From an uncultured Veillonellaceae bacterium (GTDB lineage: Bacteria > Bacillota > Negativicutes > Selenomonadales > Selenomonadaceae): a stretch of 64,000 nucleotides of DNA. A program made the translations under genes and the position numbers. Position 1 is the first letter of the stretch; every line of letters begins with the position of its first letter. Of the stretch, positions 98 through 24,720 are shown one piece after another. A model generated the notes under the pieces. That model did not search any database, was not told where the DNA came from, and was given only the letters and a program-made list of their open reading frames with translations. The DNA is taken from the NCBI GenBank assembly GCA_902785705.1, contig CACZZN010000002.1, forward strand, positions 895 to 64,894. The letters are read 5' to 3'.

Positions 98-113
98 TAA
101 CTATTCGCTAACT
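98..113 (+). repeat. candidate attL core (16-bp direct repeat)
   Basis: TAACTATTCGCTAACT is identical to 13701-13716; the bases on either side differ, so the match is exactly 16 bp. It lies 23 bp beyond the stop of the HEPN gene, the outermost cargo gene. Confidence 0.65.
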
Positions 114-136: not shown

Positions 137-481
137 TTATTCATTCTCTTCAAACCTCTTTTTGATTTCTTCCAATTCCCGCACCAGCTCTGGCATATCA
201 TCAGAAATAATCTCCCAAATGAGCCGTAGATTTACGCCGTCGTAATCGTGGACGATACGATTCCGCAAACCATAAATTTGCGCCCACGCCACCTGAGAAT
301 TTTCCTGCTTGAAATCCTCACCCAATTTCGTGGTCAGTTCCCCGATTTGGCTGAGATTGAACACGCACGCCTCAATGCGCATATCATTGGAACGAAACTC
401 ATCGTAGGAAATGCCTCTGCAATATTCGCATATCTTGGCTGCATAACGGAGCATTTTATCAACAATAATCCTATCGCGCAT
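137..481 (-). CDS. HEPN-domain toxin of a MNT/HEPN system (DUF86 family)
   Basis: A 114-residue all-alpha protein of the HEPN/DUF86 family. It contains the RX4H nuclease-type motif RNRIVH followed by DYDG near residues 83-92, as in HepT-type toxins that cleave RNA. It is the downstream partner of the MNT nucleotidyltransferase gene, overlapping its 3' end by 11 bases, the usual layout of type VII (HepT/MntA) toxin-antitoxin pairs, in which the MNT protein AMPylates a Tyr of the HEPN toxin. The start is the ATG at 481; a TTG 12 codons upstream is possible but less likely. It is the gene nearest the left attachment repeat, a common position for element-stabilising toxin-antitoxin cargo. Confidence 0.85.
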   Translation of the reverse strand: MRDRIIVDKMLRYAAKICEYCRGISYDEFRSNDMRIEACVFNLSQIGELTTKLGEDFKQENSQVAWAQIYGLRNRIVHDYDGVNLRLIWEIISDDMPELVRELEEIKKRFEENE

Positions 482-776
482 ATATTTCAATTCCCGTTTG
501 TTTGATTTCTTCGGCAATTCTCGACTGCGGTTCGATATGAGTCATATCAAGTACATCTATATCTTTGTCATCCAGAGCCTCCCGCAGTTCCTCCACGAAG
601 CCCATAAATTTTAATCCGCGCAGATTACTGTCTACCAATAAGTCTACATCGCTCTTCGGTGTCGCTGTGCCTTTGCCATAGGAACCGAAAAGAATCGCCT
701 GTCGAATCTGATGACTGCTAAAAATCGGCTGCAATCGACGCTTGATTTCATCGAAGGTAAAAATCCTCTCCGGCAT
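471..776 (-). CDS. MNT-domain nucleotidyltransferase antitoxin (MntA-like)
   Basis: A 101-residue minimal nucleotidyltransferase. The GSYGKG box (about residues 31-36) followed by KSDVDLLVD gives the two metal-binding aspartates of the Pol-beta superfamily; a third acidic position is in DKDIDVLD. In known MntA/HepT pairs this protein AMPylates and silences the HEPN toxin. The start ATG at 776 follows a strong AGGAGG-type site. The HEPN gene begins inside its 3' end, so the two are translationally coupled. Confidence 0.85.
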   Translation of the reverse strand: MPERIFTFDEIKRRLQPIFSSHQIRQAILFGSYGKGTATPKSDVDLLVDSNLRGLKFMGFVEELREALDDKDIDVLDMTHIEPQSRIAEEIKQTGIEIYAR

Positions 777-4103: not shown

Positions 4104-5150
4104 TTATCGGTTTCCTATCCTGATTTTGAGCTGACGTCGCACGTAGTCGTAGGCTTCCCGTTTCGTGCAATCAGCCAGATGCTCAACGACGGAGAAGATG
4201 TCCACGTATCTTCCATGCGTGACAGGGCAGTTCGTACTGCAAACGTAGAGCCATTTGCCATGCCGATAATCGATGCCCGCACTCGGGTTGTTGTCCTCAT
4301 GGTCTGGGAACACGCAATGAAATGACCGGGGCAGGGAAAGGAATTCACGGAGATTGAACTGCTTGGCCATCTCATAGAATTCTTTACGATTGCCTACGAC
4401 AGTCTCCTCAACATCAAGATTCAGGTCTTCCAGAGCCGATACCGCTCGCAACCTGTCATTATCAGGTGCAGGCGATTTACCCAGCTCAGATGCATTGAAT
4501 ACTGCCTGCACTGTAGAAGACTCTATGTCTGGATATAGCGACCGATAGACATCACAGGCATCCCGTATAGCTGCCGTGCTATCATCGAGCTGTTCCATGA
4601 AGTCCTCCATCGTGTACCGAAGCGGTCGTGCGCTGACGATTTTCACTCGGAACGGTTCACAGCCATCCTTCTTGTGTATGCTGTTCGGCAGTCGAAGTAT
4701 CTGGGCAGGATTGCCCACCACCTTATCGGCGATACCGATAACGTCTTTGATTCGCCGGACGTGTTCCATGTAGGATTCTTTCTTGCTGAACTCCGACGGC
4801 TTCAAACTCCAGTAGACATGAAATCCATTGCGGCTTTCCACCACCACCGTAGGTTTTGGCAGCAAATGGATGACCTCTTTCATAGACTTCTTGCGTCGTT
4901 TGACCTCATCCATCGGGAGATATCTGCCATCAGCGGTTTTTCCAGCATCTATGTCGATGAAGAAATTACGAACCTCCGTCACATTTTCCTCCCTGCGCTG
5001 TCCGTTCACCTTGTTCGGAGTGAAAAACACGTTGTAATTGGTCGGCAGATTGGGACGGTATACAGCGCGCTTTCCTTTGATGAACCTGTCAGGCGGCTCG
5101 TCGTTTAGGACGTAATGGTTGAATACCGGCATATCAAATCCCACGAACAT
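4104..5150 (-). CDS. primase-like protein: AEP-type domain plus zinc-finger domain
   Basis: 348 residues. The N-terminal domain resembles the archaeo-eukaryotic primase fold of mobile-element replication proteins: FFIDIDAG near residue 65 supplies the acidic metal ligands, VVVESRNGFHVYW follows, and NPAQILRLPNSIHKK is the equivalent of the conserved RxPxxxHxK block. The C-terminal part (about 275-345) has HCVFPDHEDNNPSAG and YVCSTNC, a C-H-C-C pattern like the CHC2 zinc finger of DnaG-type primases. It probably starts replication of the excised element. The ATG at 5150 overlaps the stop of the upstream gene (TGATG), so translation is coupled. No helicase domain is present, so the host helicase would be needed. 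Confidence 0.7.
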   Translation of the reverse strand: MFVGFDMPVFNHYVLNDEPPDRFIKGKRAVYRPNLPTNYNVFFTPNKVNGQRREENVTEVRNFFIDIDAGKTADGRYLPMDEVKRRKKSMKEVIHLLPKPTVVVESRNGFHVYWSLKPSEFSKKESYMEHVRRIKDVIGIADKVVGNPAQILRLPNSIHKKDGCEPFRVKIVSARPLRYTMEDFMEQLDDSTAAIRDACDVYRSLYPDIESSTVQAVFNASELGKSPAPDNDRLRAVSALEDLNLDVEETVVGNRKEFYEMAKQFNLREFLSLPRSFHCVFPDHEDNNPSAGIDYRHGKWLYVCSTNCPVTHGRYVDIFSVVEHLADCTKREAYDYVRRQLKIRIGNR

Positions 5151-5917
5151 CACGCTCCTACTATTTCATCCATGTAATCACTCATCCATCGGACAGTTCG
5201 CTGTGCATGAACCATGTCCCAATCAACGCTGTTACGGAAATGCTCTATCACTTCCTTTTCATGCTGGATTTGCCGTTCCATGGCCTGCAAGGCTTGTGAC
5301 TGCGGTGCGCTCTCCGTGGGCGGTGCAATCACGATTTCGTCATCGGTAGCAATCTCCATCGGCGCAGAGGTTTCACCAAGCAGATTCGCGACCAATTCCT
5401 GCTTGCGGGGGGAGAGATACGGGTATACATCATAGCGGAATGCGAATGCCATTTCCTCTGTCATGAGATTGTGGGATTCCACTGCGTAAACCGGATTGAT
5501 GAGGTACCTCTTGCCCGCGCAGTGGGGTATCTCCTGATAAATATGCCTCTCCTTCAAGATGCTACGGAACCTGTACCATGAGGATTTCGACATTCCGAGA
5601 TAGTCCTGAATTTCGCGCTCGCTTCGAAGCGGAACCAATCTTTTTGCGGAACAATCGTAGCGGCAGATTTCTCCCTTGCGATTCACGTTCAGAACCAGTC
5701 GGAAAAAATAGCCTAACTGTTCGGTACTGAGAACGTGGACAAATTCGTTGAGCTTTGCATGATTATAGAGCTTGGTTCCGTTCTTGTCTCCGAAGACCTG
5801 TACTGCGTCGCCATCCTGCCAAGTCTTCGTTGCTTTCTGATAATAGACGGTTTCCTGCAAGCGGCCATTTTCATCACGATGGTCTACAGTCCCCATCTCA
5901 TACTGATACACTGCCAT
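5150..5917 (-). CDS. winged-helix DNA-binding protein, candidate replication initiator
   Basis: 255 residues. Residues 60-150 look like a winged-helix domain: LSTEQLGYFFRLVLNV, a basic region, the recognition helix EIQDYLGMSKSSWYRFRSILKER, and a wing ending YLINPVYAV. This arrangement is seen in RepL-like plasmid initiators and phage replication regulators of Firmicutes. A negatively charged linker and a C-terminal helical region (QALQAMERQIQHEKEVIEHFRN) follow, probably for oligomerisation or contact with the primase. First gene of a two-gene operon with the primase-like gene, behind a near-consensus promoter at 5961-5989. The start ATG at 5917 follows GAGGTG. Confidence 0.6.
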   Translation of the reverse strand: MAVYQYEMGTVDHRDENGRLQETVYYQKATKTWQDGDAVQVFGDKNGTKLYNHAKLNEFVHVLSTEQLGYFFRLVLNVNRKGEICRYDCSAKRLVPLRSEREIQDYLGMSKSSWYRFRSILKERHIYQEIPHCAGKRYLINPVYAVESHNLMTEEMAFAFRYDVYPYLSPRKQELVANLLGETSAPMEIATDDEIVIAPPTESAPQSQALQAMERQIQHEKEVIEHFRNSVDWDMVHAQRTVRWMSDYMDEIVGA

Positions 5918-6036: not shown

Positions 6037-6083
6037 TTCCCATCTCTGGGAATCCGAATATTTCCTTTTCCCAGAGATGGGAA
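6037..6083. repeat. nested 16-bp inverted repeats, candidate origin or operator
   Basis: TTCCCATCTCTGGGAA (6037-6052) is exactly inverted at 6068-6083, with a 15-base spacer. Each arm is itself a palindrome TTCCCA-N4-TGGGAA, so the site is two identical dyads. It lies about 50 bp upstream of the promoter of the candidate initiator operon, where iterons or operators are expected. Confidence 0.65.
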
Positions 6084-6663: not shown

Positions 6664-7053
6664 TTAATCCTGTTGTCTCGACCTGCGGAGCCTCATGAAC
6701 GGGTTACGAGAGCGGTCATCTGCGCTCGGAATCACTCCGAGTGCTACCGCATCTAGCACGGGTCTCCGTTGAAGCTCGATTAATCGAAGAGCCGTGATGT
6801 ACGAACTCTCGATAAGAGGCCGTCTCTGAACGGGATTGCCCGCTTCGAAACTGGCTATCGTGGACTCACTGGCGCCTATCATCTGCTTCATCTCTCGACG
6901 TGTAACACGGAGGGTTTCTCTAGCCCTTCGATATCCCCGGCCTTGACGAATCCACTCATCCCGATGCTCTTCGACGAATCTCCGATGTGCCTCTTGATTT
7001 TCGCGAACTCGTATGCCTATCTGTTCTTCTAACGTCATATCGTCGTCACCCAT
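6664..7053 (-). CDS. HTH (Xre-like) regulator
   Basis: 129 residues. Residues 45-100 contain a helix-turn-helix of the Xre/phage Cro type (LRVTRREMKQMIGASESTIASFEAG). The N-terminus is a charged helix (TLEEQIGIRVRENQEAHRRF) and the C-terminus is Arg-rich. The start ATG at 7053 lies one base beyond the stop of the upstream HTH gene and has GGAAGGGAG overlapping that gene, so the two are a coupled regulator pair. Probably a repressor or antirepressor that sets the balance between the divergent arms; the target is unknown. Confidence 0.7.
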   Translation of the reverse strand: MGDDDMTLEEQIGIRVRENQEAHRRFVEEHRDEWIRQGRGYRRARETLRVTRREMKQMIGASESTIASFEAGNPVQRRPLIESSYITALRLIELQRRPVLDAVALGVIPSADDRSRNPFMRLRRSRQQD

Positions 7054-7054
7054 G

Positions 7055-7288
7055 TTAAACATCTCCCTTCCTGTAATCATCTTCTACTCTCGTAACCACC
7101 TGCTGAATGGAATCCCCGTAGAAGGAGAGCAGCCGAAACAAGAAATCCTCTTTCATGGGAGTTTGCCCCAACTCGTACTTACTCAGTTGACTCGTACTAA
7201 TCCCCATGTGCCGGGCTACCTCCTGAAGCGTGTACCGTTTCAACAGGCGAAGATTCCGAAGTGCCTCTCTGTCTAGTATCTCAACCAT
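7055..7288 (-). CDS. Xre-family HTH repressor
   Basis: 77 residues, almost entirely an Xre/Cro-type DNA-binding domain: LRLLKRYTLQEVARHMGISTSQLSKYELG, then a short C-terminal helix. The start ATG at 7288 follows GGGAGGCG. It is the first gene of the leftward regulator operon and faces the rightward operon across a 300-bp region, the classic immunity-region layout of phages and satellites, where the repressor binds operators between divergent promoters. Confidence 0.8.
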   Translation of the reverse strand: MVEILDREALRNLRLLKRYTLQEVARHMGISTSQLSKYELGQTPMKEDFLFRLLSFYGDSIQQVVTRVEDDYRKGDV

Positions 7289-7602
7289 GCTTTATCGCCT
7301 CCCTTTGACTCTGTATTACGTTTTGCTCAGTAGCATATTCTCACTCGAAGAATAAAATTTTTATCTAGTGAAAATTCCTATAGGAAACTCGCATGTTGTT
7401 ATTTTTCGAACCTACTACGATGACCATAGATTGAGTCCCGATTCTGTAATAAGAGCCCCCCCGGGTGAGGTCTCAGTGACCATCAGGATAAATCTGCACA
7501 ATATAATGAAAGGAAGTGTCTGCCCATGTTAGGACTTATCACCAACCGCGCCCCACCAGTCTACTTTTAGACTAAGACCTTACGAGATTGGAGGAATGTG
7601 AA
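7289..7602. promoter_or_regulatory. divergent control region between the two arms
   Basis: Holds the start signals of both arms. For the rightward arm a TATAAT box at 7502-7507 stands with a poor -35, suggesting activator dependence. ATTCT-N7-AGAAT type dyad sequence (about 7340-7357) is a candidate operator near the leftward start. A 14-codon frame at 7526-7570 and a small stem AGTCTA/TAGACT (7559-7574) precede the first rightward gene. Confidence 0.5.
7526..7570 (+). CDS. possible 14-residue leader peptide
   Basis: ATG at 7526 to TAG at 7568-7570 encodes MLGLITNRAPPVYF. AAAGGAAG precedes it, about 12 bases away, and the stop overlaps the hairpin AGTCTA-CTTT-TAGACT. The frame lies just downstream of the TATAAT box, so it would be the first frame on the rightward transcript. 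A regulatory leader is possible; chance cannot be excluded for so short a frame. Confidence 0.3.
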   Translation: MLGLITNRAPPVYF

Positions 7603-7932
7603 ATGAAAATTCAACCTGAAGAAAAACTGCGTCAGCTATCCGTATGGCTCAAGGAACGGCATGAATCATGGGAAAAACTGTACGAGAGAGGCGGCTTTGC
7701 ACCTGAACCCGACGGCATCCGGCTGAATGAGCTGCGAGGTCAAATCATGCGCCTGAAACGGGATATCCTGTTACTCTGTGAGCAATCTGGGCTAGATTAT
7801 CCGGATATCGCCTATGAATCGGTGCCGCCTCTTCTGTCTGATTTATACAGAGTAGAATCCGTTACTCCGCATCGGATAGTCTACGAGTGCGTAGCAGACC
7901 GAAACAAGCCGAAACAACTGAGTTTATTCTGA
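7603..7932 (+). CDS. small protein with C-terminal beta-clamp-binding motif (paralogue 1)
   Basis: 109 residues. The body is helical and charged (LRQLSVWLKERHESWEKLYERG, then LNELRGQIMRLKRDILLLCEQSGLDYPDI), and the protein ends in KQLSLF. QLSLF matches the bacterial sliding-clamp-binding consensus QL(S/D)LF, which in polymerases, MutS and Hda docks into the DnaN hydrophobic pocket. The next gene encodes a paralogue with the same ending. The ATG at 7603 is the start (TTGGAGG upstream). First gene of the rightward arm, so probably expressed early. Function unknown; binding to the host clamp is inferred from the motif. Confidence 0.7.
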   Translation: MKIQPEEKLRQLSVWLKERHESWEKLYERGGFAPEPDGIRLNELRGQIMRLKRDILLLCEQSGLDYPDIAYESVPPLLSDLYRVESVTPHRIVYECVADRNKPKQLSLF

Positions 7933-7945
7933 AAGGAGCATCATC

Positions 7946-8287
7946 ATGGCAAAAAAGAAGAGAACGCCCGCCGAGTATCTACGGGAATTGGAAACAGATT
8001 TACGAGAGAGCTTCGAGCGTTGGCAGGAGATACGGGTGCATGGATGCAGTGACCCGTATTGGCCAGACGGAACGAACATTAACCTTGTTCGCAACCATTG
8101 CATTTACTACCGCAGTCAAATCAGGGAACTATGTGATTTTTACAGATTTTCACTACCAGAGATTTATGAGCGGCCTATTCCGCCAGAAATGCCCCAAGAT
8201 TTCATGGCAAGGCCGCGAAAGCTCGTGACGGATGTTTCTCCGGTAATTCCGAAGGTTACGTCACCAGTGCAACTGAGTTTGTTTTGA
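7946..8287 (+). CDS. small protein with C-terminal beta-clamp-binding motif (paralogue 2)
   Basis: 113 residues, clearly related to the preceding gene product: an N-terminal helix (YLRELETDLRESFERWQEI), a turn with PYWPDGTNINLVRNHCIYYRS, a second helix with RELCDFYRFSLPEIYERPIPP, and the same last five residues QLSLF after a Pro/Val-rich linker. Thirteen bases separate the genes and AAAGGAG precedes the ATG. Two copies with an identical C-terminal tail on a flexible linker suggest a dedicated ligand for the replication clamp. I do not recognise the family by name. Confidence 0.7.
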   Translation: MAKKKRTPAEYLRELETDLRESFERWQEIRVHGCSDPYWPDGTNINLVRNHCIYYRSQIRELCDFYRFSLPEIYERPIPPEMPQDFMARPRKLVTDVSPVIPKVTSPVQLSLF

Positions 8288-9044: not shown

Positions 9045-9146
9045 ATGAAAACCAAGAACGACAAGACTCAAATCATCAAGGACTCCGTGGACAGCCTCAT
9101 GGAGATGTTCAGGCCGTATGAAAAAGTGCAACGTTGCACTTTTTGA
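9045..9146 (+). CDS. small ORF, 33 residues, unknown
   Basis: ATG at 9045 with GAAAGGAG upstream and the same CATCATG start context as its neighbours; TGA at 9144-9146. It encodes a lysine-rich N-terminus (MKTKNDKTQIIKD) and a short amphipathic helix. Its last eight codons lie in a perfect 24-base palindrome (9121-9144). It may be a genuine small protein, or the shortened start of a gene whose rest was deleted. I do not recognise it. Confidence 0.4.
   Translation: MKTKNDKTQIIKDSVDSLMEMFRPYEKVQRCTF
9121..9144. repeat. perfect 24-bp palindrome
   Basis: AAAAAGTGCAAC followed directly by its reverse complement GTTGCACTTTTT, with no spacer. As RNA it forms a short GC stem flanked by A and U runs, a possible bidirectional terminator; as DNA it is a symmetrical protein-binding site. 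Confidence 0.7.
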
Positions 9147-9154
9147 TGGTAACG

Positions 9155-9862: not shown

Positions 9863-10843
9863 ATGTCGAAAATCGCAATCGCAAGAACCAATGAGATTTC
9901 AAAAGCGGAATGGCTCCAACTGAGGAAGAACGGAATCGGAGGGAGCGACGCTGCTTGTGCCTGTGGCCTTTCGCGTTTTAAGTCCCGCCTCATGCTTTAC
10001 TTGGAGAAGACCAGTGCAGTGGTCGAGGATATTGACAACGAGTCAATGTACTTCGGGAGAATTTTTGAACCTATACTGCGTCAGGAGTTTGCCAAGCGAA
10101 CCGGCTTCACGGTGCAGGAAGTACCGTTCATGTTCTCCTGTAAAGAATATCCTTGGATGCTCGCCAATATTGACGGCCTTGTGACGGAACCAGACGGAAG
10201 CAAGGCACTCTTGGAAATTAAGACGGCCAGCAGCTTCAAGGCAAAGGAGTGGGAGGACGGCCTGCCCCAAGAATATTATCTTCAAGTCCAACACTACCTT
10301 GCTGTCTGCGACCTTCCGAAAGCCTACGTCGCAGTTCTTATCGGCGGCAACGACTTCCGTTATTTTCCGGTAGACAGGGATGAAGATACCATTCAGACGA
10401 TGATTGCCCTCGAAACAGAGTTTTGGTCTTTTGTGGAGCGCGGCATCCAGCCTCCCGTAGACGACCAGTCTGCCGACGGTCTAGCTGTTCTTTATCCCAA
10501 AAGTGACGCCAAGACCAGTGTCATCCTGCCTGCTGAATCGGACAACATCATTGCGGCATATCTTGAGGTCAAGCGAGCCATGACCAACTTGAAAGAAGCG
10601 CAGGATGGCTATGAAAATCAGTTGAAAGCCATGATGAAAACGTCCGCCTCTGCTGTGACACCCAATGGCTATACCATCAAGTGGCAGAGCACGACCACGA
10701 ACCGCCTTGACACGACCCGTCTGAAAAAGGAGCATCCGGATATCGCCAAGGAGTATGTCACTCAGACCACGAGTAGGCGTTTCAGCATAACGGAGCCAAA
10801 GGAGGAAACAGAGACAACCGCAATAGGAGCGGCGTCCGCTTGA
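9863..10843 (+). CDS. YqaJ-type viral recombinase exonuclease
   Basis: 326 residues. The N-terminal 220 residues carry the YqaJ/lambda-exonuclease nuclease core: GIGGSDAA (near 27-34), the metal-binding Asp in MLANIDG, the LEIKTA motif (ExK), and QVQHYLAV. It should degrade one strand from double-strand ends and hand a 3' overhang to an annealing protein. The C-terminal 100 residues hold a helical linker (LEVKRAMTNLKEAQDGYENQL) and a small beta domain. GAAGGAGG precedes the ATG. The next gene encodes a candidate annealing partner in place of RecT. Confidence 0.85.
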   Translation: MSKIAIARTNEISKAEWLQLRKNGIGGSDAACACGLSRFKSRLMLYLEKTSAVVEDIDNESMYFGRIFEPILRQEFAKRTGFTVQEVPFMFSCKEYPWMLANIDGLVTEPDGSKALLEIKTASSFKAKEWEDGLPQEYYLQVQHYLAVCDLPKAYVAVLIGGNDFRYFPVDRDEDTIQTMIALETEFWSFVERGIQPPVDDQSADGLAVLYPKSDAKTSVILPAESDNIIAAYLEVKRAMTNLKEAQDGYENQLKAMMKTSASAVTPNGYTIKWQSTTTNRLDTTRLKKEHPDIAKEYVTQTTSRRFSITEPKEETETTAIGAASA

Positions 10844-12014: not shown

Positions 12015-12224
12015 GTGACTCAATCTAGCACTGTTCCGACAACTATGTACTCACAGGGACGCATTCATATGATGACCCCTGATGAGGTGGCAACGTACCT
12101 ATCCATAAGCAAGAGCAAGGTCTACAATCTTTTTCGCAGGCAGGGCTTTCCTGCATTTCGTGTCGGAAAGCATTGGCGCACGGACCCTATACTCTTGCAG
12201 GAATGGGTGAGGCAACAGCGATGA
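12015..12224 (+). CDS. excisionase-like HTH protein 1
   Basis: 69 residues. A MerR-like HTH_17 domain: MMTPDEVATYLSISKSKVYNLFRRQGFPAFRVGKHWRTD fits the excisionase/AlpA family consensus, with the final helix LLQEWVRQQ. The start is GTG at 12015, nine bases after GAAGGAGG. It probably bends attachment DNA and steers the integrase to excision. Its stop overlaps the next ATG. Confidence 0.8.
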   Translation: MTQSSTVPTTMYSQGRIHMMTPDEVATYLSISKSKVYNLFRRQGFPAFRVGKHWRTDPILLQEWVRQQR

Positions 12225-12430
12225 TTCTGTCAGAACTTCAAGCCTACTTGAACATTCCGCGCGATGCTGCCTATGTCCTCGTCAACTCCCCTGTATTCCG
12301 TCCTGCTCGAAAGATTGGACAGAGTTGGCAAATCGACGAGGCAACATTGCAAAGATGGATTAAGAACGCAATACGAAAGAAGGATAAATATTATGATACA
12401 GAAGAAAGAGAACCGACGGGCGAAAGGTGA
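12221..12430 (+). CDS. excisionase-like HTH protein 2
   Basis: 69 residues. A second, more divergent HTH_17 domain: LQAYLNIPRDAAYVLVNSPVFRPARKIGQSWQIDEATLQRWI, then a basic tail. The ATG at 12221 overlaps the stop of the previous gene (ATGA), so the two are translated together and may form a heterodimer. Its 3' end overlaps the integrase start by 38 bases. Two HTH_17 proteins in tandem before int is unusual; one may be a transcription regulator. Confidence 0.7.
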   Translation: MILSELQAYLNIPRDAAYVLVNSPVFRPARKIGQSWQIDEATLQRWIKNAIRKKDKYYDTEEREPTGER

Positions 12431-13571
12431 TGGCACCGTATTCGCGACCAAGGACGGCAAATACAAGGCTCAGCTTACCGTTGGATACAAGAAAGACGGG
12501 AGTCCGAAGAAGATTACTCGCACTGTCGGCACGAAATCGGAGGCTTATGCTGTACTACAGCAGCTTAGGGTGGAGCATTTCACAGGAAAGCTGAACGTCG
12601 AAGGAGACATTACCTTACAGGAGTTTGCTCCACGCTGGAAACAGGGCAAAAAGGTGTCGGTCAAGCCTAAGACGTTCATGGACTATGAATCCGTACTGAA
12701 AAACGTATTGCTGCCACGCTTCGGACGCATCGCCTTAGAAAAGCTCACGACAAGCCACATCAACAAGTTTATCACGGAAATGCTTGAAGCAGGAATTCGT
12801 CCCAGCTCGGTCACCAAATACAGGGCGATACTGTCAAGCATAATGAAGGCGGCTGTCGTAGACGGTATTATCTCACGCAATCCCGTCGAATACAGCATTC
12901 CTGTCCGGCAGGAGCCATCGTCTCGCGACGCTATTCCATCAGAAGCATTGGATAAGATTTTCAACGAGGCTCACCGTATATCGTCCGAATCGGCGAGCCA
13001 TGGGCACAGAGCCGGACAAAGTTTCGTGGCCTACGCCGTCCTGAAGACAGCCTACTACACAGGCATGCGAATAGGAGAAATTTTTGCCCTTCGCTGGGAG
13101 CACATCGACCTAACAAAAAGAACCATACGGATTTGTGAAAATATCGTCGAAGCAAAGGACACGAATGGCAAACATGGGATTATTGTTGGCTCGCCGAAAA
13201 CAAAGCGCTCAAATCGCACGATTAAGGTGTCCCAGAAGCTCTGTGAGATTTTGAAGGATATGCGTCCTGCCATTGCAGGAGATACAGATATCGTATTCCA
13301 GTCCAGTGCGGGAGGCTACATTGCGCCGAGCAATTTCGCCCGCGTTTGGCGCAGGATACTGAGAAATATCGGCATGGCAGGGCAATATGAGATGTACGAG
13401 TTCCGTCATACCCATGCGACTCTTTTGCTGGCTACCGGGCGTTTCAGCATGGCCTCCGTGCAGAAGAGGTTAGGACATGAAAGCCCTCAAACGACCTTGA
13501 AGCACTACGCGCACGCTATCGCAGCCGAAGATGAACTGATGGCAGACGCATTCGACTCAGAAGAATATTAA
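12393..13571 (+). CDS. int: tyrosine site-specific integrase
   Basis: 392 residues in three parts: an N-terminal AP2-like arm-binding domain (KGDGTVFATKDGKYKAQLTV), a SAM-like core-binding domain (about 75-165) and the catalytic domain. Catalytic residues visible: Arg226 (TGMRIGE), Lys near 269 (SPKTKRS), Arg338 (YEFRHTHAT, where the first box-II His is Tyr, a known variant), His362 (RLGHES) and nucleophile Tyr372 (LKHYAH). Like Tn916-type and satellite integrases it should recombine attP with the chromosomal site at 13701-13716. The start ATG at 12393 follows GAAGGA. Confidence 0.93.
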   Translation: MIQKKENRRAKGDGTVFATKDGKYKAQLTVGYKKDGSPKKITRTVGTKSEAYAVLQQLRVEHFTGKLNVEGDITLQEFAPRWKQGKKVSVKPKTFMDYESVLKNVLLPRFGRIALEKLTTSHINKFITEMLEAGIRPSSVTKYRAILSSIMKAAVVDGIISRNPVEYSIPVRQEPSSRDAIPSEALDKIFNEAHRISSESASHGHRAGQSFVAYAVLKTAYYTGMRIGEIFALRWEHIDLTKRTIRICENIVEAKDTNGKHGIIVGSPKTKRSNRTIKVSQKLCEILKDMRPAIAGDTDIVFQSSAGGYIAPSNFARVWRRILRNIGMAGQYEMYEFRHTHATLLLATGRFSMASVQKRLGHESPQTTLKHYAHAIAAEDELMADAFDSEEY

Positions 13572-13700: not shown

Positions 13701-13716
13701 TAACTATTCGCTAACT
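13701..13716 (+). repeat. candidate attR core (16-bp direct repeat)
   Basis: Identical to 98-113. Here the sequence also reads GCTAACT-ATTC-GCTAACT (13699-13716), two direct heptamers spaced by four bases, like paired integrase core sites. It lies between int and the tRNA-Thr terminator, so the tRNA itself is not interrupted. Confidence 0.7.
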
Positions 13717-13934: not shown

Positions 13935-15635
13935 TTACCATATCTTTCCCAAGATGAACCAAGTGCGGCCCTTGCTCTGTGCGTCAGCTGAGATGCCGTC
14001 ATTGCCGATCCTGCGTGCATAGTCGAGACGCGCGAACCAGTCGTCCGGCTTGGAATATGCCACGCCGATGCCCCAGCCTTTGAGGGATCTGCTGTTGTCC
14101 GGGGCAGAAGAGTTCTTGACCAATTTCACGTGGCCGCCGTCCAGATAGGTGCTCAGGGTGAGTCCGGGCAGCTTCGTATGATAGCGCAGTTCCAACGAGC
14201 CGAGCCAGCCCTGATCGCCGGATGCCTCTGCCTGCGGATAGGCGCGGACGCCTCTCGCGCCGCCCAGGTAGAACTCCTCCGAGCTGTCCAGATTGCGGTT
14301 CGCCATCTGTCCAGAGAGCTTCGCCACGACATCGGTCATATGCCCCAGAGACTGCACCGCCGTCAGATTCGCCTCCAGCTTCATGAAGCGCCCCTCGGTA
14401 TCGCTGTAGCGGTTCATGAACTTGCTGTAATCCGAATCCATGCTCATCCAGCCCATGGTCGCCTTTGTATCGTAAGTGATGGCGATGCCCGCCTTCGGGA
14501 ACCGGTCCGCCCCTTCGATGCCCACATGCAGATTGTGCGAGTGTTTCTCGCTGTCCAGATTTCCGAACGCATTCTTCAGCAGTGCCTGATAATAGGAGCC
14601 TGCAAAGCCCAAATCATCCTCCAACTGGCGATAATCATACCCATAGACAAATTTCATCTGATGATCCGTCAAGTGGAAGAGCGGACGAGAACCAAAGAGG
14701 CTGACGGTATTCGCTGTCCCTGTCGCGCCCAGCGCGGAAAAAACTCCGCCCAGATCATAGGTCATGCGGCTGACGCCAAGCCCCAGCGTCGTGCCGCCGC
14801 GTCCGACGAGCATCTCGTAATTCGCATAATAATTGCGCAGCTTGCGGTTCGAGGTCATCACGCCGATATTCATCCTTGCCCCCGTCCCGCCTACATCGTA
14901 CTGTCCGTACTGCAGGCCGAATCGATAGCGCCCCGATGCCTTGCTGCCATAGTTCTCCGCATAGAGCGTCACATTGCTCGTCTTGCCGCTCTCGATGCGT
15001 ACCGTCACATCGCTGGTGCCGAAGCCCTCTCCCGGAGCCAGCACGCCCACCGCTTTCGTGCCGCTTTTCTCGCTGATGGAGTAGAGCGTCGTTTCCAGCT
15101 TGCCCGTGCGGATGATATCCCCCGGCTTCAAGCCCTTCAAAAAGCCCAGAGCCACTTCATCCTTCATGCCGCTCCGGTTGTCGAGCTGCACCTTACCGAT
15201 ACGTCCCGGAATGATGCGGATGACCACCGTACCGTCCGTGCTGGTCTGCGCAGGCAAATATGCTGCGGATGCAGGATACCCGTGCTGGCGGCAATAGAGC
15301 GTCAGCTGATGCACAATCCCATCAAACTCCGAAAGCGTCACCTCGCGATTCATGCCGCCCTCCAGAATCTTCGCGAGATCCTGCTGGTTCAGTCGCAGCT
15401 CCGAGGCATCCAGATCGATTTTCTTGACCACAAAGGTCTTTTCCTTCGTCTCAGGAGGCGGCTGCGGCGTCTGATCGTCTACATCCGCCTCCGGGCGCGG
15501 CTCCGTCATCTTCCGGATTTCATCCCCCGGATTCTTGAGGAATTCCGATGGGACAGCCTCCGCCGCTCCCCCGAAATGAAGCAGCAGTGCCGCCGCTGCT
15601 GCCGCCGAAACAAACTGCCTTCCTTGAAAAAGCAT
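13935..15635 (-). CDS. TpsB outer-membrane transporter of two-partner secretion (ShlB/FhaC/HecB family)
   Basis: 566 residues. A signal peptide (hydrophobic Ala/Leu stretch ending GGAAEA) and a Pro-rich linker with TPQPPPETKEK precede two POTRA domains (about 68-215; first begins FVVKKIDLDASELRL, with the POTRA2 features YCRQHGYPAS and IRIIPGRIGKV). The rest is a 16-strand beta-barrel, with the family motif VRAYPQAEASGDQGWLGSLELRY near residues 460-485 and a C-terminal strand ending in FILGKIW, an aromatic end recognised by the Bam machine. It exports the TpsA adhesin encoded just upstream in the same operon. The start ATG at 15635 follows AAGGAGAG. Confidence 0.92.
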   Translation of the reverse strand: MLFQGRQFVSAAAAAALLLHFGGAAEAVPSEFLKNPGDEIRKMTEPRPEADVDDQTPQPPPETKEKTFVVKKIDLDASELRLNQQDLAKILEGGMNREVTLSEFDGIVHQLTLYCRQHGYPASAAYLPAQTSTDGTVVIRIIPGRIGKVQLDNRSGMKDEVALGFLKGLKPGDIIRTGKLETTLYSISEKSGTKAVGVLAPGEGFGTSDVTVRIESGKTSNVTLYAENYGSKASGRYRFGLQYGQYDVGGTGARMNIGVMTSNRKLRNYYANYEMLVGRGGTTLGLGVSRMTYDLGGVFSALGATGTANTVSLFGSRPLFHLTDHQMKFVYGYDYRQLEDDLGFAGSYYQALLKNAFGNLDSEKHSHNLHVGIEGADRFPKAGIAITYDTKATMGWMSMDSDYSKFMNRYSDTEGRFMKLEANLTAVQSLGHMTDVVAKLSGQMANRNLDSSEEFYLGGARGVRAYPQAEASGDQGWLGSLELRYHTKLPGLTLSTYLDGGHVKLVKNSSAPDNSRSLKGWGIGVAYSKPDDWFARLDYARRIGNDGISADAQSKGRTWFILGKIW

Positions 15636-15704
15636 GAAAGAACTCTCTCCTTATGCACATGCCTATGGAACTGTCGACCAACTAGATTGTCCTCCAGTTC
15701 CTGT

Positions 15705-15749
15705 GAAAAGCCAATCATCCGTCCTGCAGGGAAGGATGGTTGGCTTTTC
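15705..15749 (-). terminator. intercistronic hairpin between tpsA and tpsB
   Basis: GAAAAGCCAATCATCC (15705-15720) pairs with GGATGGTTGGCTTTTC (15734-15749), one mismatch. On the minus strand it lies just after the tpsA stop and ends in TTTTC. It probably reduces read-through so that far less TpsB than TpsA is made, or stabilises the tpsA mRNA. Confidence 0.7.
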
Positions 15750-15759
15750 GCATGGAATT

Positions 15760-18700
15760 TTATACTGCCGTATCCATCGGCGCGCCGAGATTCACAGCGT
15801 CCTTCAGGGTTTCCAGCCCAATGAGACTTGAATCCTGCGTCTTGCTGCGATTCTCTTCGCCCGTTTCCGTGTCCTCCTCCGTATCATCTTTCTGCACACG
15901 GATGGAAATGCCCGATGATGTCTCCGTTTGCTCCGATGACGAAGCCTTCGTCTTGGTCGTGGCATCCGAATGTGCACCCGTCGAAAGGTTCACGCCATCC
16001 TCCGATGTGCTCAGACTGATGGAGCTTTTCGTGCCGTCCTTCGTCGTGATGTTCACCGTCGCATCCGAGTACTCCAGTTCCGCATCGCTTTCCGTGTTGG
16101 AATCATTGGAAATGGACACGCTTCCGGCGCTGCTTTCCAGCGCGATCTCGCTGTCCACATCCGCATTGCTGGAAACCTCTACGATCTGACCCGTGCCAGA
16201 AAGATCCGCCGCATTGACACCGGTGCTCTTGTAAGCCACAGATGCAGAGGAATATGGCATCTCAGCCGCATTCGCCGTCTCCGCCAAGCCTTCCGACTCG
16301 GACACCTGCACCAGAATCGTATTGTCGGGCGTTACCTTCTTCGAGCCAGATTCCGCAAGGACGGCCGAAGCAGTGGCTATCGTCGATGCAACCGCGCCAT
16401 TCGCTGTGCCTCCTGTTCCGGTGCCGCCCAGTTCCAGCAGTGCCTCCCAACTCATGCCGCTGCCATTGGAAGAAATTCCGTCCAACCCTGTGCCGGATCC
16501 ACCGGATCCGCCAGAGCCCCCCGGACCCGTACCGGATCCACCAGAGCCACCCGGCCCCGTACCGGATCCGCCAGAGCCCCCCGGACCCGTACCGGGTCCG
16601 CCCGGCTCCACATTGCCGCCGGTGCCGGGATTTTCACCCGTCCCGCCATGCTCTCCGCCCGGTGTCGGATTGGAACCGGGGGGCGGCAAAATCGAGGGGA
16701 TGCCGCCGCCACCACCGGTCGGAGTGCTGCCGCCGCCACCCGCAGGGGTGCTGCCGCCGCCTCCTCCGCTGCCGCCGCTGCCGCTGCCGCTACCTCCCGG
16801 TGATGGTGGCGAGGATGGCTCATTGACGATGAAGTTCCCGGGATTGAACTCCTTGATGTAGTAGTTCTGCCCGTAGTTTCCGCTGGTCAGGTTCGTTATG
16901 CCGCTCTTGTTCCTGAACCATCCCGTCACTGCATCCGGATAGGTGCCCACTGTATTGATATCCACGGCCGCTCTCGTCACGTCGAAGGTGAAGTCGTTTG
17001 CGTCAAAATCCGCGTCCCCGTCCACTACGCCGCTCCAAGAACCACTGTAGCTGCTCGGCCACACGCCTTTTGTCGTGGTCGCGTCTTTGGCCGTGACCGT
17101 CACTTCGGCACGACGGATGATGCCTGAGCTTTCCAGTTCGATGCTCCCGCGGTTGATGTCTCCGGTATTCGTATCGTACGTATCCACACCCTCCAAGTAG
17201 TAGTTTGGGTTTCTAATCTGCACACCCGTATAGCTCACCGCATGGGATATAGGATCCGTGGATGCCTCTGTCAAGGACGCAGCCGCCCCGGAGTAGGAGA
17301 TACCGGTATCTGCATCAATGCCACCCCGATATACGCCGTTAGCGGTAATATCCAAATCTTCATCATAAAAAACATCTTCGAGATACTTCGACTGGATGAA
17401 CGCTCCGGCATCGCTTCCCATCAGCCGGTCTGTCCCGTCATAGGTCTTCTCCGCAGGAGTTGCCACCAGTCCCCGGATCTTTGCCGGGTCGATGATGCCG
17501 TTCAGACTGGTATAAGTGGCATATACCGTATTCGTAGCACGATCGTACTTCGTGGTCAGCACGCCCTCCCCGTCGCTCGTCGGCACGGGAACCAGCTCAT
17601 AGTTCTGATCGTCCCAAGTAAGGAAATAGTCCACACCCACGCCATGTCCCGCATCTTTGGATGTGTATCTCGCACCCCCGTCAACGTCCGTCTGCAATGC
17701 CAGATTGACCGCATCTCCCGTCAGTAATAATTTTTCATCCAGCATGGTGCGGTTGATATTCTCGATTGTCTTGTATGTATCCGCTACAGCATCCGTGCCG
17801 TCATAGGTCTTCCGCACTTTATTCACCAGGGATATCTCGGCCTCGATGGGCTTGATTGTCCCCGTGCCTTTCAGGATGTTCTGTGTCAAGTCAGAATCGA
17901 TGCCGGCCGCCGATGTCTCCACCAGTTCCAACGCATAATTTCCGGCTTCTTCACCTGTTAACACGAACTCTTGGTACCAGACCTGCCGCGTGAGGACTTT
18001 TCCTTCATTGTCTCGTTCCACATTTTCATCATATGCAGTGTTGTCTACATTCCTATAGTGAGCACTGTACGTCAGCCCCACCTTTCCGGTATCGCCTTCA
18101 ACCAGTCCGGTATCCGCCTCATCGACATCCGCGAAACCTACAATCTCCAAATACGGCTCCGACACAGTTGTGGTTTTATCGTACACTTTATCAATCCCGG
18201 TTCCGTCATCCACACCTGCTTCAGTATTCTTAAAGTCCACATACAATTTGCGTGCCTTGATGGTTCCCTTCAGGTCGGACACGGTTCCCAGCGTATAGTT
18301 TCCGGCATCAGTTCCGCCCAAGAGAATCGTGCCGCTATTCAGCACGATTTCCCCGGCGTCATCCGAGTCAGGTCCATAAACGCCGACATTCTTGCCGGAA
18401 TATGCCAACGTGCCGCCTTCCGAAACTGCCGCATACACATCGTCTGCCGTTTCCGGCGTCGTTTCCGTGGCGGGATATGTGACCTTTCCCTCCACCTTGG
18501 TACCTGCCTTCAAAAGGTCTGGCGTGATTTCCGTGGTTCCGTCATAGACTTTCGTAATGCCGGCACTGGAATCCTTGAACGCGATGTTCACCGTCTTGGG
18601 GGTGATCGTGCCCTTGGCATTGAATGTTACTTGAGCCACGGGATCCGCCTCCGTCCCATGCCCGTTCAGACGGTAGTTCCCAGCTGCATCCCCAGTCAGG

Positions 18701-21700
18701 GAAACGGTGTAGGTGATGTTCTTGACGGACGGATTTCCGTTCGTATCACGATAAACATCCTTGCCTCTGTTGGTCTCGGACATGGCCTGATATTTCGCGG
18801 AAATATCCCACTTAGCGCCGTCGTTCACCAGAGTCGCACTACCATCTGCATACCGGATATAGTTTCCTCCGAAGTCCTCGCGATCCGCCGTGTCGCTATC
18901 CGTCCCGCTCACTACGCTTGCCGACCCGTCATACTCTTTATCAATGCCTGTGGTCGTTCCCAGCTCCACATAGATATCCCTGCGATCAATCGTGCCGACC
19001 ACAGAGCCGGCTTTGCCATAGTTCACCCCCGCTTTCATCGGATTCAAGGAGCCGGCTTCTTCCAGCGTATAGTTCGATACGTCAGCGCCGCCTGCCTTCA
19101 CAGCGTAGATGACCCGCTGCGCACCTGTCCCGGCGCCTTGATACCCCGTCGCGTTGCGCGTCCGATTGCCGTCCGCATCTGCGTAGTAAGATTTATAGCC
19201 GGACTCATTTGTCCACGAGAGTTCGACACTATCGTCCGCAATAATTCCCGAAGTGCCCGTTCCTGCCTCCACATTCAGCGTCGTTGCCCGGACTTCGTCC
19301 CCCAGTGCTTCGCCTTCATAAACGTCACTGCCGTTATAGGTCTTTGCCGCCGCCTCCGTGACCCGAACGCCATCCTTGTAAAGCTCCAGCTCACCCACGG
19401 GACGCGGCAGAATAGTTCCCGTGCTTGTCCCGGCATCCGTAACCGTATAGTTCCCTGCATTCACAAAGGCTTTTTCTACCGCACCTTCGGCAAACGTAAT
19501 CCCCTTCGCGGCCGCCTTTCCATTCCCATCAAGCAGGACATTCTTGCCATCCGTATAGTCTCCGGTCAGGGCGTTCTTGTTGAAGGAAATCTGATCCAGC
19601 TCGCCGTTAGCCACTGTATCGGCCACGCCATTTTGCAGGAAGGTGACGTTCTCGCCGGTCAGCGCGTAACCATCGGGAACTTCCACCTTCGCTGTCCCGT
19701 TGTAAATCTTGTCCACATGCGAGAACACTGCTTGGACTTCGCGGGGATTGATCCGGCCGTTGTTTTTCGTATAGGTATACGTATACCCGGCACCGTCGCC
19801 TTCCCACGATGTCCGTACAGCCGTGCTGTTTGTCTCCAGCTGATAGTTTCCCTTATAGTCACCATCCAAGGATACCGTGTAGCTGACCTGTTTCCCGGAA
19901 ATCACGTTGTTGGCAGCATCCCGCAAAACATTTTTATCATCATAGTGGACATTCGAGATATTCAGCGAGACTCTGGGGTTCGTTCCGTTCAAATCGCTCG
20001 CCAAAAACTTATGGGCATCCTCATCGGTCCCATAAATCAAGTAACCCTCAGGGTCATATGTACCACTGGAATCTACGTCATCCCCTGCACGGAACTGCAA
20101 ATAGTGCGTCGCACTGCCGTTGTCATCCGTGTCCAGCACATTGGCAGTTCCGTCATAGGTCTTCTCTATCGCACCGTCCTTGATCGCAAGCTTGATGGTG
20201 CGGGGCGTGATGGTTCCCGACGTCCAGAAAGCGCTCGCGTCATAGTCCCCCGATGCACTCTTCCCATACGTGGTGCCATCCGTTTTCAGCCCCTGATCCA
20301 CGGTTGCCCCATCCACGAAGGAGTAGTTTTGTGCATCATTCCCTTGCGCTTGCACCGCATAGCGCACCCAGTGCGCTCCGGGGCTGGGGAAATCCTGACT
20401 GGGTCTGACATAATCCGTCGCATTCCGGTCGTTGAAGTCTGCGTCCACAATCGCAAAGGACACATCATCCCCGTTCAAGATTGATGCACTTTTCAGCGTT
20501 GCGCCAGTAGGGACGCTGTATCCCGTGGTTCCGTCATACGCCTTAGTCGGGGCTATCGTCTGTCCGTTTCCGTCCACCAGAGAAACATCACTTGTGGAAA
20601 TCGTGCGTGGCGTGATGGTCCCCACGTTCCCCGTATAGGAGGAAGAATCCAGCGCATAGTTGCCCGCGCGATTGCCGGACAGTGCCAAGCCGACCAGCGA
20701 CACGTTCTTCCCTGCCCCGACATTCTTGTCGGCATAGGCAGAGCCGCTCCCGGCACCGACCGCAACCAGTCCCGCATCTCTGTCCAGAGTACCCGACAGG
20801 GAAATCACACTGGCACCCGTCACATCTTTTGAACCGTCATAGACCTTGGAAACCCCTTGGATGGACACTGTACGCGGGGAGATGGTTCCCGTCGCTTTCC
20901 GTCCCAGCTGCAAACCACCCTCGACGTCGGCATTTTTCGTCACGTTGGAAACTGCGTCATAGAGCTGATAGTTCCCCGCCTTGGTGCCTGTCAGGCCTGC
21001 CGCATAGGTAATCTTATTCGTATTCACATTGCTGCCGTCGACCCAGTTGATGTCCGGGCTGTCGTATGCTGCATTGATAACACGAGACATACCCTTTGAA
21101 TCCTGCTCAAAAACACTGTTGGGAGAAGCATTCGGATCTGTATAGAGAACATATCCTTTGTAATCAACATCCGTTATCACATCGGTCGTGCCGTCATAAT
21201 CTTTGTTGATGTCCTTGGCATCGTCCGACAGGGACACATTGATTGTGCGCCGCGTAATGGTGCCATCCTGGAAGAAGCCGTTATAAACGGTTCCCCCATT
21301 CAGCGCTGTCAGCTTTTCCGTTGCATCCTCATCAGCTTCCACCGCGTCCGTGACAAAGGTATAGTTGTTCAGTACGTTCGCATCGTCCGATGATACCTTC
21401 ACATCGTAGGAAATATGCTGCGCCTTGTACCCATTGTCCTCGCTGTCCGCAATGCCGGAATCCGTGGCATTGACGGCCGCATGCGTCTTCGTGCTGTCCA
21501 CAAAGGAGCCGCCTTTGACAGAAAACGTTATCTTCCCCACATCGTCTGCCAGAATATTTGCGGCATTATGATCCACCGTTACAGTTGCACCACCAATGCC
21601 ATCCACCGTCGATCCGCCGTCATAGTTCTTGGTGCTGGATGTGCCGGTGATCTGGATGCCCGAGGTGTCAATCACCCTCCGCGCAATCGTGCCCGTAGCC

Positions 21701-24564: not shown

Positions 24565-24616
24565 GATCTCCACTCCGTTCTCCGGATTTGCATCCATCTC
24601 GTTCCTTTGTCCTATT

Positions 24617-24645
24617 ATTATAACGCACCCGCAGGCAACCTGCAA
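24617..24645 (-). promoter_or_regulatory. sigma-70-type promoter of tpsA-tpsB
   Basis: On the minus strand TTGCAG (24640-24645), 17-base spacer, TATAAT (24617-24622). Transcription would begin near 24610, so translation must start at 24597 or 24564. Confidence 0.85.
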
Positions 24646-24694
24646 GGTGAAACCGGCGAAAACAACGGGCGAAATAAGGCAGAAAAAGCAAAAA

Positions 24695-24720
24695 CTGCCG
24701 CACAAAAATTCATGCGGCAG
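24695..24720 (-). terminator. terminator of the flagellin gene
   Basis: On the minus strand CTGCCGCA (24713-24720) pairs with TGCGGCAG (24695-24702) and is followed by TTTTTGC. It lies 12 bases past the flagellin stop. Confidence 0.85.

Follow-up and report, generated by a model that had tools for sequence, protein, structure and literature searches.

Two adjacent open reading frames in the window (the whole stretch of DNA that was analysed, 64,000 nucleotides in length) encode P0001 and P0002, small paralogous proteins that belong to a family of mobile-element proteins which is unnamed and so far undescribed. Members of this family probably function as clamp adaptors that tether the DNA enzymes of the element to the host clamp, DnaN, and not as poisons of host replication. 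Homology, the conservation and relocation of a QLSLF motif, gene fusions, neighbouring genes and a structural model of the body formed the basis of this reading; DnaN binding, a partner for the body and the roles of both proteins were inferred from them.

The original prediction placed two adjacent reading frames of 109 and 113 residues, which shared the ending QLSLF, in an integrative element. The reading frames and their endings were confirmed at the positions listed in Table 1. They are on the same strand, are separated by 13 bases and are each preceded by a good ribosome-binding site (ggagg upstream of 7603 for P0001 and aggag upstream of 7946 for P0002). The apparent integrative element extends over 13.6 kb between perfect 16-bp direct repeats, a repeat pair of which none was expected by chance, and has an integrase at one end, so that this part of the prediction was also borne out. 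P0001 and P0002 constitute the first rightward transcription unit of the element and face two leftward HTH regulators; no sigma-70 consensus was found in the intergenic region that separates the two directions of transcription. Neither virion genes nor a relaxase were recognised among the open reading frames of the element.

Table 1. Position of the P0001 and P0002 genes, their motifs and the other features of the integrative element.
Feature	Position	Strand	Remarks
P0001, divergent family member with degenerate body and intact C-terminal QLSLF	7603..7932	+	109 aa
P0002, canonical family member with two-helix body and disordered tail to QLSLF	7946..8287	+	113 aa
Clamp-binding motif QLSLF of P0001, CAACTGAGTTTATTC	7915..7929	+	putative, from sequence
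Clamp-binding motif QLSLF of P0002, CAACTGAGTTTGTTT	8270..8284	+	putative, from sequence
Codons of the P0002 body signature, W26-H51, W..(6)..GC.DPYWPDGTN.NLVRNH	8021..8098	+	placed from start 7946
Left 16-bp direct repeat, TAACTATTCGCTAACT	98..113	+	putative att
Right 16-bp direct repeat	13701..13716	+	putative att, about 50 bp from tRNA-Thr
Tyrosine integrase of the element	12264..13571	+	start codon uncertain
Excisionase-like HTH, right end of the element	12015..12224	+	
Primase-like replication protein of the element	4104..5153	-	phrog_10514, 5e-9
HTH-like regulator, second	6664..7080	-	weak match
HTH regulator (Cro/C1-type), divergent from P0001/P0002	7055..7288	-	
Intergenic region between leftward HTH regulators and rightward pair	7289..7602	.	
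RadC-like JAB-domain protein, downstream of P0001/P0002	8355..8981	+	
YqaJ/RecE-like recombination exonuclease	9863..10843	+	

Other sequences in the window were also recorded. At 6037-6083, upstream of the leftward replication genes, TTCCCATCTCTGGGAA forms a perfect inverted repeat of 16 nt around a 15-nt spacer and is possibly an operator or origin element; a palindrome at 9118-9147, with 15-nt arms that are 93% complementary and zero spacer, is possibly an operator or terminator. Inside the left repeat there is a HepT/MntA-like toxin-antitoxin pair (137-776, minus strand), detected with E values of 7e-11 and 2e-12 in matches that did not reach the curated cut-offs. The excisionase-like HTH protein gave a weak match, far under the cut-off, to MAD1 of a methylation-associated defence system. 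Outside the element, a large two-partner-secretion-like locus (13935-24705, minus strand) consists of a 566-aa transporter-like open reading frame and a 2981-aa repetitive exoprotein-like open reading frame with many KTYDG-type repeats.

P0001 and P0002 are paralogues with 28-30% identity (28% by BLASTP with the tail included, E = 2e-11). When it was searched without its tail, with a profile made without P0001, the body of P0001 scored 46.7 bits (E = 1e-13), compared to a single listed match, at 3.5 bits, from 200 shuffled P0001 bodies searched with the same profile. The predicted common body was upheld as far as homology is concerned, but P0001 has lost six near-invariant residues (D36A, W39E, N44R, L47E, N50G and H51Q in P0002 numbering), the positions of which are 90-98% conserved across the family. 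The branch of P0001 is also the longest of the tree, at 2.42 compared to a median of 0.24, although the placement of P0001 is unsure. The combination of a degenerate body with a perfect tail indicates that P0001 is not a second equal copy; the two dedicated clamp ligands that had been suggested would not be equals. Recurrence of paired copies in related elements, which had been named as a check, was not observed: side-by-side copies were present only in this genome and all other loci were single-copy; the tandem pair is a local peculiarity of this element.

About 60 relatives of P0001 and P0002 were found, most of which are encoded by phages, prophages or conjugative elements from Bacillota. 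The species-level genome collection yielded 47 loci, the last two of which were marginal, and IMG/VR yielded 13; by genome set, relatives were found in 8/189 for the same taxonomic family, 10/380 for the class and 5/398 across the phylum. Profile searches were required, as a scan of viral contigs for close relatives with P0001 alone gave zero matches. Members from named phages were found in the R. gnavus phages phiRg519T2 (gp47) and RG-TP1 and in Faecalibacterium phage FP_Brigit. The genome that carries the pair has a third copy, which ends in QLCLF and adjoins an SSB-like gene; other genes on the contig of this copy were judged by eye to be type IV secretion-like and ParA/ParB-like. OY725863.1, a 2.8-kb 'plasmid' that carries a family member, was considered as a minimal replicon and dropped; its other open reading frames, which by eye are M23 peptidase-like and amidoligase-like, point to a fragment of a larger conjugative element.

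In agreement with the original prediction, no named family covered these proteins. There were zero family matches over the cut-off for P0001 and P0002 in Pfam, PHROG, NCBIfam and PADLOC, and the pair matched no defence system in PADLOC; the longer relatives were also without a named-family match, except for the primase part of the fused members. No resemblance to the short or long forms of the body was found in the PDB by sequence or by fold. The sole match in the PDB searches and the BFVD search by fold was an uncharacterised siphovirus homologue (A0A8S5U9X6, E = 1.1e-5), which was uninformative with regard to function.

AlphaFold2 modelled the body of P0002 as an antiparallel hairpin of two helices, 8-32 and 41-66 (pLDDT about 97), and the tail as disordered, with a pLDDT of 55-60. 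The family signature, W..(6)..G[CG].DPFW.DG.N[LM]NL.RNHI, covers the end of helix 1, the loop and the start of helix 2. Residues W26, G33, D41, G42 and P79 of the body are invariant, and the body signature is more conserved than the tail. Long members of the family (175-230 aa) have extra helices added.

For the analysis of the motif, members were collapsed at 70% identity to 47 non-redundant representatives. QLxLF or QLxLxF was present after the body in 20 of the 47, compared to a mean of 0.115 and a maximum of 2 in 2000 shuffles and to 2/597 in neighbouring proteins. When the wider definition of the clamp-binding motif (CBM) was used (PMC11139829), 25/47 members had a motif against 1.7 expected, and the literature-defined motif was exactly C-terminal in 13/47 members and in 0/597 neighbouring proteins. 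A search of the 2.0-Mb genome for DNA encoding the pattern Q-L-(S/T/C..)-L-F-stop gave three occurrences, all of them in family members. Fourteen members of the alignment end in Q..(L/I/M)F; in these, the Q, L and F were 100% conserved and the preceding 20 residues 14-64%. A shared DNA site was rejected as the reason for the identical tails of the pair, since their 21-nt match is 86%, with synonymous differences, and the motif codons vary between members of the family.

Depending on the clade, the motif was at the C-terminus, ahead of an acidic tail or within an internal loop; the loop location is that of a supported clade of four (L030, L033, L068 and L077), which has VQLSLFD just past helix 2. 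These varied positions suggest selection for the presence of the motif, not for one position. The hexapeptide variant QLSLEF was found in one member (G136), and QLxLxF-type hexapeptides are a known form of the CBM (PMC11139829). Near-forms in other members were QLSIF, QLDIW, QISIF, ELNLF, EISLF, QTSLF and QRSLF; EISLF is the motif of the Selenomonas clade, and a change from Gln to Glu in the CBM reportedly weakens binding strongly (PMC11139829). QINLF in the giant fusions was rejected as a clamp motif and left uncounted, as it is in the N-terminal region, about 450 residues from the body. Overall, the pattern is that of a selected short linear motif, consistent with the reading of QLSLF as a conserved clamp-binding motif and not an accident.

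Host PolC and DnaN were located by family search, and PolC from the same genome as the pair was found to end in SESDQLELFSM. In B. subtilis, the C-terminal QLSLF of PolC is essential and binds DnaN with a KD of 3.8 uM (PMC12309361). In P0001 and P0002 a QLxLF-type peptide, conserved beyond chance, occurs in a tail that, for P0002, is disordered in the model, and from these sequence features DnaN binding by both proteins can be strongly inferred.

Members fused to other proteins and the genes adjacent to the family bear on the function of the body. Two unrelated architectures connect the body with DNA enzymes. In L065 and L073, the body is followed by QTSLF or QRSLF, a linker and a phage-type primase, and in G159 and G165 it is within a 2600-aa SNF2/methylase-type protein (type judged from sequence). 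Neighbouring genes encode replication initiator phrog_2562, UvrD and SNF2 helicases, DnaB_C, MobL relaxase, toprim primase and SSB; no neighbour was universal to all loci. The gp47 gene of phiRg519T2 is near a replisome organizer and recombination genes.

In the proposed mechanism, the helical-hairpin body of P0002 would bind a replication, recombination or modification protein encoded by the element, and this partner may differ between elements. The disordered tail would dock QLSLF in the pocket of host DnaN that is used by the C-terminal motif of PolC. As a result, an element primase, helicase, recombination nuclease or methyltransferase would be brought to the clamps at the fork; alternatively, the host clamp may be brought to the replication intermediates of the element. 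Points against this mechanism are the members that have a good body and no recognisable motif (L028, L042, L053 and L076), EISLF in the Selenomonas clade and the lack of a neighbour common to all loci. P0001 would represent a fast-diverged duplicate that has kept the clamp hook while the conserved surface of the body was lost. A modulator of P0002 is its most likely role and the simplest guess from its sequence; P0001 could act by competition for the second pocket on the dimeric clamp, by dimerisation with P0002 or through a new partner. A broader suggestion, which is advanced tentatively, is that this widespread family is a general-purpose adaptor that links varied element enzymes, from primases and helicases to recombination nucleases and methyltransferases, to the host clamp, and that here the degenerate-body duplicate serves as an internal competitor by which the canonical copy is tuned.

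Three roles had been proposed for the pair in the original prediction, namely slowing host replication, recruiting the clamp to the origin of the element and blocking host polymerase exchange. Clamp recruitment fits best with the fusions, the neighbouring genes and the conservation of the body; slowing of the host is less favoured. For the latter, the proteins would act as decoys that occupy the DnaN pockets, displace PolC and slow the replication of the host chromosome to the benefit of the element, with a body that provides only bulk or oligomerisation. Consistent with such an effect, their tail is near-identical to the essential C-terminal motif of PolC, P0001 and P0002 are the first rightward genes and lie beside repressors, P0001 retains its perfect tail on a degenerate body, and there is a phage precedent in the clamp inhibitor Twort Gp168, although the DNA channel is the site where this protein acts (PMC11139829). 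A decoy is nevertheless unlikely, and an adaptor is preferred to a poison, because the body is conserved above the tail, forms part of DNA enzymes in fused or embedded form, and occurs in conjugative elements and prophages, which need a living host with which to coexist. Furthermore, B. subtilis with a dnaE(QLSLF) mutation remains viable (PMC12309361), which indicates that an extra QLSLF ligand is not necessarily toxic.

The adjacent genes also suggest an accessory role in DNA modification, in which the body would partner orphan DNA methyltransferases and the motif would set them behind the fork, so that new element DNA is methylated immediately. Of the genes immediately adjacent to family members, 13/65 encoded DNA methyltransferases, of three classes (at loci including L044, L027, L065, L042 and L050), compared to at least 2/65 for control genes a few genes away; this enrichment had a Fisher p of about 0.002, or 0.04 if the control is 5/65, with loci that are non-independent. 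Mom and PAPS reductase were further neighbours of family members, and the body is present inside the giant helicase/methylase proteins. However, neither this element nor the surroundings of the third copy in its genome had a methyltransferase that was recognised, many other loci are without one, and the body is fused to primases too, which makes a role confined to methylation quite unlikely. It is very improbable that QLSLF is an incidental by-product of a disordered tail and inactive on the clamp. Homologues that keep the body without a recognisable motif, which had been named as a sign that the motif is incidental, do exist, but they make up no more than a minority, to which L028, L042, L053, L076 and the giant fusions belong, and the conservation statistics, the variety of synonymous codons, the relocation between clades and the match to host PolC all argue against this explanation.

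Clamp-binding peptides are familiar on polymerases, repair proteins and transposases. No prior description was found in the literature of a separate clamp-adaptor family that gut-Bacillota phages, prophages and conjugative elements have in common; literature searches on clamp adaptors from mobile elements yielded transposases and Twort Gp168 and not the P0001/P0002 family. If the clamp-adaptor reading is true, it would provide a route by which elements without a clamp of their own gain processivity, access to the lagging strand or methylation coupled to the fork, and it would assign a function to gene products annotated as hypothetical only. The conserved body could be used as bait for the partner on the element side.

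PolC, with QLSLF in B. subtilis and QLELF in this host, has the same class of pentapeptide at or near its C-terminus and the same expected DnaN pocket; it is a polymerase, whereas the members of the P0001/P0002 family are proposed adaptors of about 110 aa in which an enzyme domain is absent. IS transposases bind the beta clamp via a C-terminal QLxLF, the position of which varies among homologues (PMC4549789), and like P0001 and P0002 they are mobile-element proteins with this motif at the C-terminus. In the transposases the motif is on the enzyme itself, whereas in the P0001/P0002 family a separate small protein carries it in most cases, and no Pfam, NCBIfam or PHROG family for a transposase catalytic domain was matched above threshold by P0001 or P0002. 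Twort Gp168 is likewise a small mobile-element protein that acts against the clamp of a Gram-positive host, a likeness drawn by description (PMC11139829), but it fills the DNA channel of the clamp whereas the motif of P0001 and P0002 is of the peptide-pocket type. The proteins from phiRg519T2 (gp47), RG-TP1 and FP_Brigit belong to the same family and are hypothetical proteins that are single copy and unpaired. YabA is a clamp-linked replication regulator. Hda carries a clamp-binding motif (PMC11139829). Hda/HdaA and YabA regulate initiation in the host and contain AAA+ or YabA domains, both of which were absent from P0001 and P0002 in Pfam and NCBIfam, but in these regulators a clamp motif or contact is joined to a partner-binding body, as is proposed for P0002.
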